A stretch of DNA of 64,000 nucleotides from Rhodohalobacter sp. SW132 (GTDB taxonomy: Bacteria; Bacteroidota; Rhodothermia; Balneolales; Balneolaceae), in contig NZ_QUOK01000001.1 of the NCBI RefSeq assembly GCF_003390325.1, positions 558,001-622,000 of the forward strand, given 5' to 3'. Below are positions 4,961 to 9,238 of the stretch, piece by piece. Positions within the stretch are counted from its first letter, which is position 1; every line of letters starts with the position of its first letter. The translations under genes were made by a program, and so were the position numbers. Under the pieces are notes generated by a model that saw only the letters and a list, made by a program, of their open reading frames with translations, made no database searches and was not told the DNA's origin.

Positions 4961-7405
4961 CTATTCACAACTCGGGCATATTTTGCTCAGCAGCGGATCT
5001 GTCGGGCAACCGTTCATATCCCCGGATTTTACCTGGTCAACCACCTCATCCCCGTGCTTTTTCCGGGCTTCGGCTTCGAGTTCAGCCACGGATTTTTCAG
5101 AGTTCACGGTCTTTTCGGCCGCCTTACCGAATCCTATTCGCTTTGCTGATCCGTTCTTCTCCTCAGCTTTACCTGCCGGTTTGCCAAACCCTTTCCGCGT
5201 TCCCCGTTTATTTACATTCGAGGTGTATTTCTCGCCTTTAATCACTTTATCCACAAAACAGTAGTAGGTTGATTTCAGCCTCTTTTTCCATGCGTAGATA
5301 TAGATTTTTTCCATCTCGCTGCGGTACCGCTCATCCAGGTAGATCGATTTTGACACCGCCTGATCAATTGATTCCTGGAATGCTGCGGCGATATCAATCT
5401 GCCGGTTTGGGTGAATTTCATAGGCCGATTTATAGAGATCCTTATCGATTTTTCCATCCAGCTCGCGGATCGGCTGTATTGAACCGTTGTTGGCTTTGAT
5501 CTCGTTCGCCATTTCTTCACTCCACAATCCTTTCGCTTCAAGATCACGAACCAGTTGCTGGTTGATCACAATATGCTTTCCGGAGAGTGTATCACGGGAA
5601 TAGACATTGCTGAAATAGCTATCGATGGATGACGTGGTTCCGGCGATGATCGAAATGGTAGCCGTTGGCGCAATCGCCAGCAGCACCGCATTTCGGCGGG
5701 GCTTGTAGTCATACGATTTGCCGGCTGCTTTCATCTCATCATAATGAGCAAATGCGCCCCGCTCTTCCGCCAGTTTTTCAGACTGATCGTAGGCAATCTT
5801 TTTAGTAAACGCCCCCAGTTGCCGGGCGGCCATCACCGCTTCTTCCGAATCGTACGATATGCCGAGTTGAACCAGTGCCTCAGCAAATCCCATCACGCCA
5901 ATACCAAGTGGGCGAAGGTCGGTGGTGTTTCGCTTCGATTCTTCGGATGGATAGAAATTTTTATCGAGGATCGTATCCAGCCCGGTTACCATCAGCCTGA
6001 CAGACTCTTCCAGTTTATCCCAATCAAAACCCGAACTATCCTGTTTGATGTGTTTCGAAAGGTTGATCGATGCCAGCGTACACACAGCGGTGGAATCCGG
6101 CCGGTTGGGGATGGAGATCTCCGTGCAGAGATTTGAACTGTTAATGACGCTGTACTCCGGGCAGGGATTTGTATCGTTATGGCGATCTTTAAACGTAAGC
6201 CACGGATGGCCCGTTTTAGCCAGTTTAAAGAGGTATTTTTTGAAAAATGTACGGCTCTCCACTTTTTTAAACTGAACCAGTTCTCCATCTTCAGCCTGCT
6301 GAATGCGTTGTTCATATTTTTCTCGAAACTCATCTCCGCAGGCGTCCACCAACTCCGGACATTCGCCCGGATCAAACAGGTAGATCGGTTCATCCTGTTC
6401 AATTCTCCGCATCATCTCATCGGGCATCCAGAGTTTTGTATTGAGTGACGGCGTTCGGAAATAAGCGTTACCGGTGGTTTCGCGCAGATCGAGAAATCCA
6501 TCGATATCGAGGTGCCACGGCTGCATCGACACAACCTGCGAGCTCCGGCGGCGGCCGCCCTGCTGGATAGAGTTGACAAGCGTATCAAACACTTTCAGAA
6601 ACGGGATCACGCCGGATGACTTTGCATTCAGTGATCGGATCATCGACCCGGTGGATCGTATTCGGGTTACATCTGTCCCCACTCCGCCGGCATATTTCGC
6701 CAGGAATGCGGTTTCACGGGCTTTGTCCATGATCGATTCAAGCGAATCATCCACCACGCTCACGTAACAGGAGGAGTATTGCGAAACCGGGGTGCCGGAG
6801 TTAAAAAGCGTAGGTGTGGAGTGAAGGTATTCCAGGCGCGATAGTTTGTTGTACATTTTGATCACCTCTTCGTTGGATGATCCGATGCCCATCGCCACAC
6901 GCATAAAAAACCACTGTGGTTTTTCAATGGTCTGATTGTCCCGGTTTTTTGCGAGATATCGATCCTTTAGCGTTGTGAGGCCAAAATAACCGAACTCGTG
7001 ATCTCTGTCGTGATCGATCGCGGAACTCAGCAGTTCAATATCAAACTCTTTGAGTTCTTCACTGATGAGGTTCTGACCGATTGAGTGATCCAGGTAGCTG
7101 CTGAACGAATCCAGCCTTCGTTCGATATCGGTGTGAATCAATTTCAGAAGCTGACGGGTGGCCAGCGTATCGTAGATGGGATGGCGCGGAATGAGCTGCT
7201 CGATCGCCTTCAGCACAAGCTGATCCAATTCTTCGGATGAGACCCGTTCCGGCACTTTCAGGTCCAGTTCCTTCATAATCAGGAAAACCAGCTCGTAGTC
7301 ATCTTCCACCTCAAGCCCCTGGATGATATTAAAAATTGCGTTGATAATTTTCTGTGTCTGGAAAGGCTCTTCCTTACCGTTTCGTTTAATGACCGTTCGT
7401 TTCAT
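4961..7405 (-). CDS. nrdA: Class I ribonucleotide reductase, large (alpha) subunit
   Basis: Catalytic subunit that reduces ribonucleoside diphosphates to deoxyribonucleotides. The 814 residues begin with an ATP-cone (about 1-95, MKRTVIKRNGKEEPFQ), so overall activity is probably regulated by ATP/dATP. The catalytic barrel is recognisable: STPTLFNSGTPVSQYSSCYV carries the first redox cysteine, NSSNLCTEISIPN holds the Asn-Cys-Glu active-site triad, and CTLASINL follows. The extreme C-terminus ends CPTDPLLSKICPSCE, the mobile cysteine pair that passes reducing equivalents to the active site. A lysine/glycine-rich linker precedes it. It is the second gene after a cobalamin riboswitch and is separated from nrdB by a small repeat element, so the two are probably still co-transcribed. 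Confidence 0.95.
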   Translation of the reverse strand: MKRTVIKRNGKEEPFQTQKIINAIFNIIQGLEVEDDYELVFLIMKELDLKVPERVSSEELDQLVLKAIEQLIPRHPIYDTLATRQLLKLIHTDIERRLDSFSSYLDHSIGQNLISEELKEFDIELLSSAIDHDRDHEFGYFGLTTLKDRYLAKNRDNQTIEKPQWFFMRVAMGIGSSNEEVIKMYNKLSRLEYLHSTPTLFNSGTPVSQYSSCYVSVVDDSLESIMDKARETAFLAKYAGGVGTDVTRIRSTGSMIRSLNAKSSGVIPFLKVFDTLVNSIQQGGRRRSSQVVSMQPWHLDIDGFLDLRETTGNAYFRTPSLNTKLWMPDEMMRRIEQDEPIYLFDPGECPELVDACGDEFREKYEQRIQQAEDGELVQFKKVESRTFFKKYLFKLAKTGHPWLTFKDRHNDTNPCPEYSVINSSNLCTEISIPNRPDSTAVCTLASINLSKHIKQDSSGFDWDKLEESVRLMVTGLDTILDKNFYPSEESKRNTTDLRPLGIGVMGFAEALVQLGISYDSEEAVMAARQLGAFTKKIAYDQSEKLAEERGAFAHYDEMKAAGKSYDYKPRRNAVLLAIAPTATISIIAGTTSSIDSYFSNVYSRDTLSGKHIVINQQLVRDLEAKGLWSEEMANEIKANNGSIQPIRELDGKIDKDLYKSAYEIHPNRQIDIAAAFQESIDQAVSKSIYLDERYRSEMEKIYIYAWKKRLKSTYYCFVDKVIKGEKYTSNVNKRGTRKGFGKPAGKAEEKNGSAKRIGFGKAAEKTVNSEKSVAELEAEARKKHGDEVVDQVKSGDMNGCPTDPLLSKICPSCE

Positions 7406-7450: not shown

Positions 7451-7620
7451 GAAAAGTGAAAGGGCAAAAGTGAGAAGAAAAGTCCCTTACCCCCCGAGGG
7501 ACGTGCCTTTGGCAAAAGGGGTGTCCAATAAAATCTTTCCAGATCTTGAAAAACATCCCCCTAAATCCCCCTTTAATAAGGGGGGACTTTTCACCTTTCA
7601 CATTTGCCTTTTCACTTCTC
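7451..7620. repeat. MITE-like inverted-repeat element between nrdB and nrdA
   Basis: The left end GAAAAGTGAAAGGGCAAAAG and the reverse complement of the right end GAGAAGTGAAAAGGCAAATG match closely, and both continue to a second matched block ending AAAAGTCCC (7478-7486) and GGGACTTTT (7583-7591). This gives imperfect terminal inverted repeats of about 36 bp around roughly 100 bp of C-rich filler (ACCCCCCGAGGG, CCCCCTAAATCCCCC). No protein is encoded. It resembles the C/G-rich hairpin elements at 33385-33525 and 48712-48911 in this window, which suggests a dispersed family. It separates two genes of one operon and could fold into a long hairpin in the message. Confidence 0.7.
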
Positions 7621-7629
7621 GCCTCAGCC

Positions 7630-8610
7630 CTAATAATTTGTATACTCTGTCGAGGAGACCTCAAAGAAATTGATCAGTTTTTTCACGTCCTCTTTTTGCA
7701 GAAACCGGAGCGGATTCTCGGTGATATGAAACTCAGGCTCAAACCCAAGCTCCTGGAGCCTGCGATCGGTGATATATTTCAGGTAGCGCTCCAGCTCACC
7801 GAACGAGATTCCCAGGATGGTGTGATCTCCGAATTTGTGCTCTACATATTCGATTTCGAGTTCGGCGCCTTCCAGGATCAGATCCCGGATTTCGTTCACA
7901 AACGCCTCATCTTCTGTGATTTCCGGGTTTTCGTCCAGCATGATCAGGATCGCTTCAATTCCGTTCTGCAGGTGAAGGGATTCATCAATCAGCACCAACT
8001 CCACTCCGGAAACCACATTATTCATTTTCCCCATATCCTTGAGGGCGAAAAAATGGGCAAATGAGGAATAGAAAAAGATTCCTTCCATCACGATGTTGTT
8101 CAGCAGTATCGCTTTCAGTATCTGTTTCTGACCGGCAATTGTATCCGGATCGATCCCGTCCTGGCTGATTTTATCGATTGCATCCACAATCAGCGACTGC
8201 TTCTTGCGGAGAATCGGATCTTCAAACGCCACTTCATACATCTTGTCGCGATCCATGCCGAAGGATTGCAGCACAATTTCAAAAAAATCACTGTGGATAT
8301 TTTCCATGAAGAGTTGTGTACTGAAACTCATTTTTGCGTGGGGATCGGTAAGCAGCGGGAAAAAGGTGTTCACCAACACGTTTTGCACCAGCAGTTCGGA
8401 AGAGCAAAAATATCCCACGGCAGTATCGAACAGATCTTTTTCATTCTCTGAAAGAGATTGGTAATCGAGAGCATCCTGCTGGATGTTCAGCTCTTCGGGA
8501 AACCAGATCGCTTTTTTCTGTTTTTCGTACAGCTCTTTGAAAATCGGGTAGGATGGATCTTCCGTGAGCTTGATGTTCTCTCGCACAGAGGTTTTGCCGG
8601 TTAATTTCAT
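7630..8610 (-). CDS. nrdB: Class I ribonucleotide reductase, small (beta) subunit lacking the radical tyrosine
   Basis: Radical-generating ferritin-like subunit, 326 residues. Metal ligands can be placed by spacing: Glu72 (SSELLVQN), Glu103 and His106 (FMENIHSDFF), Glu176 (MEGIFFYSS), Glu210 and His213 (LIDESLHLQNG). The residue seven after Glu103, where class Ia and Ib enzymes carry the radical tyrosine, is Phe110, and the first ligand is Glu where class Ia has Asp. Both features match subclass Ic (Mn/Fe, Chlamydia type) or the related tyrosine-free Mn subclass. The C-terminus ends SSTEYTNY, keeping the tyrosine used for radical transfer to NrdA. It is the first gene behind the cobalamin riboswitch. 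Confidence 0.95.
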   Translation of the reverse strand: MKLTGKTSVRENIKLTEDPSYPIFKELYEKQKKAIWFPEELNIQQDALDYQSLSENEKDLFDTAVGYFCSSELLVQNVLVNTFFPLLTDPHAKMSFSTQLFMENIHSDFFEIVLQSFGMDRDKMYEVAFEDPILRKKQSLIVDAIDKISQDGIDPDTIAGQKQILKAILLNNIVMEGIFFYSSFAHFFALKDMGKMNNVVSGVELVLIDESLHLQNGIEAILIMLDENPEITEDEAFVNEIRDLILEGAELEIEYVEHKFGDHTILGISFGELERYLKYITDRRLQELGFEPEFHITENPLRFLQKEDVKKLINFFEVSSTEYTNY

Positions 8611-8776
8611 AAGTCTTCGTCTATTTTAATCAATTAGGCGGGCGCTAAAATAGAACAGGAGAAAAGTTAATCCGGGCGGGCTGATTCTACGAATACGGAT
8701 ACAGGACAGCCACAAAACGGGTTCATGATCTTTTCAACTGCACCTTAACTCCCGAAGGTTTGTTTACTTGATCTAA

Positions 8777-8946
8777 GGCAGGTCTCCTGGCTCATTGGAA
8801 TCTTCGGTCCGCCTTCCCGCTTATTTTTGGGCTTAAGCAGTGGCACCGGGCCGAAGTCGTCAATTTACAGTTGCGGGTACAGCTCCCGTTTTTCACGGGA
8901 TTCCCTTTTCATTCCGAAGCCGCACAATTGCCGGCACCGAAACACC
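8777..8946 (-). promoter_or_regulatory. Cobalamin (adenosylcobalamin) riboswitch upstream of nrdB-nrdA
   Basis: Read on the minus strand, this stretch begins GGTGTTTCGGTGCCGG, then has AAAAGGGAATCCCGTGAAAA, the B12 box GTACCCGCAACTGTAA, a variable stem, and ends with AGCCAGGAGACCTGCC, matching the cobalamin riboswitch core in the right order and spacing. The direction points to nrdB, whose ATG lies about 170 bases downstream. In known cases bound B12 lowers expression of the gene behind it. I could not resolve the expression platform; the leader between 8611 and 8776 contains a small hairpin but no clear terminator with a T tract, so translational control is more likely. Confidence 0.93.
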
Positions 8947-9238
8947 TTATCTCACACGTATAACTTGATGAAAATTAAGTCGCTAAACAATCTTACTTTT
9001 CCACAAAATGGCGAAGTTGTCCACAATATTCAGGAGAAATAGGAAATTTCAGAGATCGAAAAAGCAGAAACCTACCGTTTGTGTTTCCTGAGATTGGTAA
9101 ATATCAGTGATTCTCAACCAAGATTTTGCCCCCAGACGCTGACGATGAACCGCATTCATATGCTATGTTTTGGCCCTCGTGATGTAACTATGTTATAAGT
9201 GATAGCCATTATTCGGACAAATTTAATCAATCACCAAA
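8947..9238. other. Divergent intergenic region, riboswitch promoter side
   Basis: About 290 bases between the 5' end of the minus-strand riboswitch and the plus-strand lipoprotein. It must hold the promoter for the nrd transcript and probably that of the lipoprotein gene. No ORF, hairpin or repeat stands out. Confidence 0.5.

Follow-up and report, generated by a model that had tools for sequence, protein, structure and literature searches.

A cobalamin riboswitch precedes the class I ribonucleotide reductase genes of Rhodohalobacter sp. SW132 and its relatives and is predicted to repress them when vitamin B12 is available

The genes nrdB and nrdA of Rhodohalobacter sp. SW132, which encode a B12-independent class I ribonucleotide reductase (RNR), are preceded by a leader with the sequence features of an AdoCbl-type cobalamin riboswitch, from which we infer ligand binding. 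This leader quite probably represses the class I enzyme when B12 is available by hiding the nrdB start codon, the B12-dependent class II enzyme NrdJ then making the deoxynucleotides; the repressive sign and an output at translation rather than transcription are predicted from the pairing pattern of the leader. The genome (G000 in the comparisons below) comprises 5.08 Mb in 45 contigs and is 98% complete, and coordinates refer to a 64,000-nucleotide stretch of contig NZ_QUOK01000001.1 (positions 558,001 to 622,000), here called the window. The minus strand carries, in order, a tandem operator (9025-8997), a presumed promoter (about 8991-8958), the aptamer, the expression platform, nrdB and nrdA:

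8997..9025, minus strand: tandem operator TGTGGACAA-N11-TGTGGAAAA, from an exact-pattern genome scan; its reverse complement resembles two DnaA boxes
8958..8991, minus strand: presumed promoter TTGTTT ... TTATAC, from locus comparison only
8760..8964, minus strand: cobalamin riboswitch aptamer, full length (RF00174)
8868..8885, minus strand: aptamer hairpin with loop L5 (UACCCG), the kissing-loop partner, from pairing analysis and the published L5 consensus
8759-8611, minus strand: expression platform, between aptamer and nrdB
8742..8759, minus strand: P13 hairpin ACCUU-CGGGAGUU-AAGGU, whose loop L13 begins CGGGA, from covariation
8730..8754, minus strand: strand X, consisting of L13 and the 3' half of P13, the alternative partner of Y, from the X:Y duplex
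8639..8666, minus strand: strand Y, which can pair with X or Z, from pairing analysis
8620..8629, minus strand: strand Z, 9 nt before the nrdB ATG, pairing with the core of Y (UCUAUUUUAG/UUAAAAUAGA), from pairing analysis
7630..8610, minus strand: nrdB, class I RNR beta subunit, 326 aa (PF00268, 217 bits)
4961..7405, minus strand: nrdA, class I RNR alpha subunit with N-terminal ATP-cone, 814 aa (PF02867, PF00317, ATP-cone)

The original prediction, a cobalamin riboswitch within 7630-8946, is borne out by the covariance model: cmscan places RF00174 at 8964..8760 on the minus strand with 109.1 bits (E 2.1e-26) against a gathering score of 31.5, and the match is full length (model positions 1-189 of 189), although the aptamer is slightly longer than proposed, reaching 8964 and not 8946. 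The riboswitch was also said to point to nrdB-nrdA, and the aptamer does lie 149 nt upstream of the nrdB ATG with nrdA as the next gene, both being class I RNR genes, nrdA beyond the range first proposed. Only two RF00174 matches are present genome-wide.

The association of riboswitch and nrdB is conserved. The NrdB of the window is strongly matched (E 8.9e-177 or better) in 12 of 97 relatives, and in all 12 an RF00174 match lies upstream of nrdB on the same strand, either directly upstream (six genomes, with 111-149 nt from the aptamer to the start of the NrdB match) or with metE as the sole gene between, in the order riboswitch-metE-nrdB-nrdA (six genomes). An RF00174 match also precedes nrdB in 11/11 named contigs encoding NrdB; six of these contigs are shared with the genome set, giving 17 distinct loci (12 genomes and five further contigs), and all 17, many of which come from close relatives and are not independent, have the riboswitch upstream of nrdB on the same strand. 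A phylum-wide draw of 394 genomes, searched with NrdB at E 1e-80, yielded no genome beyond the same 12. Sunxiuqinia and Mariniphaga, which we take to be Bacteroidales, are among the 17 loci with NrdB 80% identical, and because these two loci are Bacteroidales, the distribution suggests that the riboswitch-nrdBA cassette has been transferred between lineages.

Between aptamer and start codon, the most strongly constrained element is P13, which stands directly 3' of the aptamer in 17/17 leaders as a 5-bp stem with an 8-nt loop starting CGGGA. Across the 12 distinct sequences covering the 17 loci, 60 of 60 pair cells hold standard pairs and 15 cells are changed on both sides, compared with 5.2 in shuffles (0/500), and the pairing is broken by sliding the partner one to three columns. 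The L5 consensus UCCCG and the L5-L13 kissing interaction are described in the available part of PMC10653944, and every one of the 17 leaders has the potential for 4-6 bp between these loops, so that both parts of the RF00174 platform, kissing loop and P13 stem, are predicted throughout. In the SW132 leader, the X:Y duplex has an energy of -24.1 kcal/mol (z -3.32), and the Y:Z stretch alone folds no better than shuffles (z -0.41); among the 17 leaders, z is -2 or lower for X:Y in 10 and for Y:Z in eight, and one leader (L020) has no clear start hairpin. Forcing P13 costs 0.2-8.0 kcal/mol relative to the free fold in 17/17 leaders (-27.2 versus -31.7 in SW132), as would be expected if it takes ligand and kissing loop to shift the equilibrium. 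Swapping strands among nine diverged leaders showed cognate pairs to be better than non-cognate ones for both X:Y (-18.9 versus -15.1, p <5e-5) and Y:Z (-9.6 versus -6.9, p 3e-4), and in the X:Z control cognate pairs were not better than non-cognate ones (p 0.92). The leader also contains a 19-codon ATG reading frame (8667-8726, minus strand), situated between P13 and strand Y. An intrinsic terminator was considered as the output and rejected, the sole site listed being on the plus strand inside the aptamer region.

With B12 bound, L5 of the aptamer would kiss L13 and hold the P13 hairpin, and the freed strand Y would pair with Z beside the nrdB start codon and block translation, while class II NrdJ would supply deoxynucleotides in place of the class I enzyme. 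When B12 is lacking, L13 and the 3' half of P13 (strand X) would pair with Y, releasing Z and allowing nrdB to be translated. The repressing P. megaterium metE switch, as published, has the architecture predicted here, except that a start-codon hairpin takes the place of its terminator in the nrdBA leader.

Repression by B12 could instead act on transcription, by attenuation or Rho-dependent termination in the leader, a reading that is unlikely but carries appreciable weight. Control of Streptomyces nrdABS is reportedly transcriptional, as the title of Borovok 2006 is said to state. The P. megaterium metE switch is likewise transcriptional in the available part of PMC10653944. Against this, the minus strand shows no terminator-like site from aptamer to nrdB, and in 17/17 leaders the covarying output helix ends, with strand Z, at a point between 3 nt inside the start codon and 12 nt upstream of it, a position that favours start-codon hiding. 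A switch of opposite sign, with nrdBA activated by B12 in the manner of the A. halodurans cobT switch, is very improbable. Activating corrinoid riboswitches do exist (PMC10653944, available part) and the sign cannot be read from the aptamer alone, but P13 of the activating type is itself incompatible with the output hairpin, whereas here X pairs with Y and not with Z, and six relatives have metE, classically repressed by B12, in the same operon.

It is scarcely credible that the riboswitch is a degraded or non-functional relic: nothing specific speaks for this beyond a -35 box weaker than that of 12/17 relatives, and the element scores 109.1 bits over its full length with L5 and L13 intact and the platform pairing retained. 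The -35 comparison refers to TTGACA, found at the presumed promoter position in 12/17 related loci, where SW132 has TTGTTT; because a sigma-70 consensus scan gave no site there, the promoter is presumed from the comparison of loci only.

Of the two RNR large-subunit loci (PF02867) in the genome, one is nrdA and the other a frame of 1202 aa on contig C3. By the logic known from Streptomyces, a class II nrdJ had been expected elsewhere in the genome, and the frame on this other contig is one: it matches the NCBIfam equivalog PRK07562, 'vitamin B12-dependent ribonucleotide reductase', with 2022 bits against a cut-off of 1737, it matches the class II family PF08471, and its best PDB relative is the B12-dependent RNR 7b9p (alignment over residues 21 to 943). 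A B12-dependent counterpart of the class I enzyme is therefore encoded in the same genome. The 17 kb around this nrdJ hold no Rfam element, B12 type included, and nrdJ is thus not under a detected riboswitch.

Neither class III RNR (NrdD), nor CbiC, the single marker used for de novo B12 synthesis, nor metE was found in the SW132 genome, which has one metH over cut-off, and the second RF00174 copy precedes a BtuB-like TonB receptor (TIGR01779, 243.5 bits, below the cut-off of 599.7). On the basis of this gene content, the organism probably imports B12 and holds the B12-free RNR in reserve. The second riboswitch (L007:4342-7986, on contig C5 of SW132) is followed by the BtuB-like receptor, a DUF6580 membrane protein, which is a candidate B12-uptake component, and a diphthamide-synthase-like ATPase. 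Several relatives (G006:C4:295623-302008 and others) have a cobalamin riboswitch on the nrdJ strand, a few kb upstream of that gene, and nrdJ may there stand within a B12-uptake cluster. Many Balneolaceae encode MetH as two adjacent frames of about 340 and 900 aa (G043:C1:2888228-2891787 and others) in place of a single frame of about 1240 aa.

Full-length NrdJ is present in all 12 genomes with riboswitch-nrdB. Across the comparison, a B12 riboswitch accompanies the class I genes in 13/13 genomes with both class I RNR and NrdJ and in 0/2 with class I RNR but without NrdJ, a small control because the latter, G023 and G032, belong to one genus and are 89-90% complete. These two have class I RNR, their NrdJ-type matches are weak large-subunit similarity only, and no B12 riboswitch was found near their nrd genes. 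The counts of class I RNR keep 15 of 33 PF00268 rows (188 bits or more) and drop 18 at 24-89 bits, of which the SW132 one was individually identified; G094, G096 and G058, with NrdA-like frames and no PF00268 match, were left out. Together with the RF00174 match and the nrdJ gene, this distribution supports the Streptomyces-like logic of the original prediction.

In the family genomes (G000-G057), metE occurs in only 6 of 58, each time within the riboswitch-metE-nrdB-nrdA operon, and this order therefore places two B12-free isozymes under one switch in six genomes. Broken remnants of metE also lie between riboswitch and nrdB in Fodinibius roseus, where the gene is split and shortened (L010, 1765-3000), and in F. 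sediminis, where just its start is left (L012, 2469-3000); since the riboswitch and nrdBA are retained in both, metE is in the course of loss from this position. The same two B12-free isozymes are found under a different aptamer family and in reverse gene order in G095, of the same class and another family, which has an AdoCbl-II aptamer (RF01689, 50.3 bits) upstream of nrdA-nrdB-metE (L064, G095:C1:476500-487500) and encodes both NrdJ and MetH. This is a second origin of the arrangement.

The genes downstream of the riboswitch encode a complete class I enzyme, with a ferritin-like NrdB beta subunit carrying six metal ligands and an NrdA with ATP-cone and barrel. The nearest named relatives of NrdB are from Fodinibius, Aliifodinibius and Gracilimonas (85-88% identity), and its best solved relatives by sequence include 1syy, which we take to be the R2 protein of Chlamydia; the metal-ligand positions were read from the 1syy alignment, in a numbering that we presume to be correct. 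Two substitutions mark the Chlamydia type, class Ic RNR: the radical Tyr is replaced by Phe, and the first Asp ligand by Glu. Both are present in the window's NrdB, with Phe at the usual radical-Tyr position, as in 1syy, and Glu at the first metal-ligand position, and the E-xx-H-xxx-F motif is kept in 17/17 loci. NrdB is thus class Ic-like in sequence, and a Mn/Fe cofactor would be expected. A second, weak R2-like match at C1:932640 was rejected as a further class I RNR, being an R2-like ligand-binding oxidase (361.1 bits against a cut-off of 315). A 439-aa protein on contig C1 (L069:610-1929) has a weak SCP2-like stretch followed by an R2-like ligand-binding oxidase domain, and similar weak PF00268 matches occur in frames of about 440 aa in many relatives.

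In SW132, nrdB and nrdA are separated by 224 nt containing a G-rich, palindromic, repeat-like inverted repeat (7477-7486 / 7583-7592, within window 7477-7592), and a promoter of its own is therefore possible for nrdA, the riboswitch then governing nrdB, or the leader reading frame, alone. This is improbable, given that the gap is 10-16 nt in six loci, both Bacteroidales included, all of them without the G-rich repeat, and that the longer gaps look like later insertions; they measure 77-224 nt in the other 11 loci, in three of which the start taken lies upstream of the one likely used, making the true gap larger. With gaps of such different length, co-transcription of nrdA with nrdB is no more than likely.

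The tandem operator upstream of the promoter suggests a further layer of control. In the 5.08-Mb genome, the pattern TGTGGANAA-N11-TGTGGANAA is matched exactly at three places, one before the riboswitch and two before nrdJ (contig C3, 192529-192557 and 192725-192753, minus strand); reversed, it has no match, and allowing one mismatch adds a single site. In relatives, the operator lies upstream of nrdJ in 19 of 20 (18 without mismatch and one with one mismatch; none in G064) and, for 15 of the 17 riboswitch-nrd loci, at a distance of 59-63 nt upstream of the aptamer (up to two mismatches, one with N12), being absent from the two Bacteroidales loci. It also precedes the riboswitch-free class I operon of the NrdJ-less G023 and G032. 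With up to two mismatches, all sites but one stand at RNR promoters in a sequence set biased to RNR loci, a bias that makes the whole-genome scan the fair test. The repeats are direct with a 20-bp period, and the opposite strand reads TTATCCACA / TTTTCCACA, a sequence match to the DnaA-box consensus. Canonical NrdR boxes were considered and rejected as the operator: a scan of the window and of L006 with what we take to be the NrdR consensus, as two 16-bp palindromes mostly 15-16 bp apart, gave no site with up to three mismatches. A tentative proposal, its chances a little short of even, is that every RNR operon in Balneolaceae stands under a dedicated non-NrdR tandem operator (TTGTGGATAAC-...-TTGTGGAAAAG, 20-bp period), whose reader is probably DnaA or a regulator not yet described. 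The operator would then set total dNTP capacity with the replication cycle, and the B12 riboswitch downstream would select the enzyme that supplies it.

B12 riboswitches over B12-independent class I and class III RNR, and widely over metE, are already known, and the riboswitch logic described here is not new; the arrangement and the control layers are new for the Balneolaceae group. A literature search, with most subscription journals outside its reach, returned no single riboswitch over metE-nrdBA, no Balneolaceae case and no RNR-specific tandem operator, and the scope for a new finding is greatest for the operator. Present results extend B12-controlled RNR choice to Balneolaceae and two Bacteroidales, place metE and nrdBA under one riboswitch in an operon type that has also arisen with another aptamer family, and catch metE decaying out of this operon while nrdBA persists. 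As a natural system, the locus appears to combine cofactor sensing with an RNR-wide operator, both stacked on one promoter.

The closest known case is Streptomyces coelicolor nrdABS, in which, according to the available parts of PMC4991794 and PMC4342826, a cobalamin riboswitch also precedes class I RNR, in a genome that likewise has NrdJ (PMC4991794). The present locus differs in its nrdB-nrdA order, class Ic-like beta subunit, predicted translational output and upstream tandem operator, and in the presence of metE in the same operon in relatives. Bacillus methanolicus, as listed in the available part of PMC4342826, has (AdoCbl)-nrdAB and (AdoCbl)-metE and thus B12 riboswitches before both kinds of B12-independent isozyme, but as two separate riboswitches and transcripts, whereas six Balneolaceae genomes have one riboswitch before metE-nrdB-nrdA. 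In delta-proteobacteria, B12 elements precede nrdDG in genomes with NrdJ (PMC545781, available part), a similar placing of a B12-independent RNR under a B12 element, although nrdDG encodes the anaerobic class III enzyme and not class I. In P. megaterium, the metE switch free of corrinoid pairs the 3' side of P13 with the output hairpin's 5' strand (PMC10653944, available part); this pairing and the L5-L13 kissing loop have predicted equivalents here, but the output hairpin of P. megaterium is a terminator and that of the nrdBA leader is predicted to be a start-codon hairpin. The operator is reminiscent of E. coli nrdA, where two DnaA boxes also lie before the RNR operon; these are 2-3 bp apart in the available part of PMC11317965, compared with 11 bp between the DnaA-box-like sites here, for which DnaA is a putative binder.
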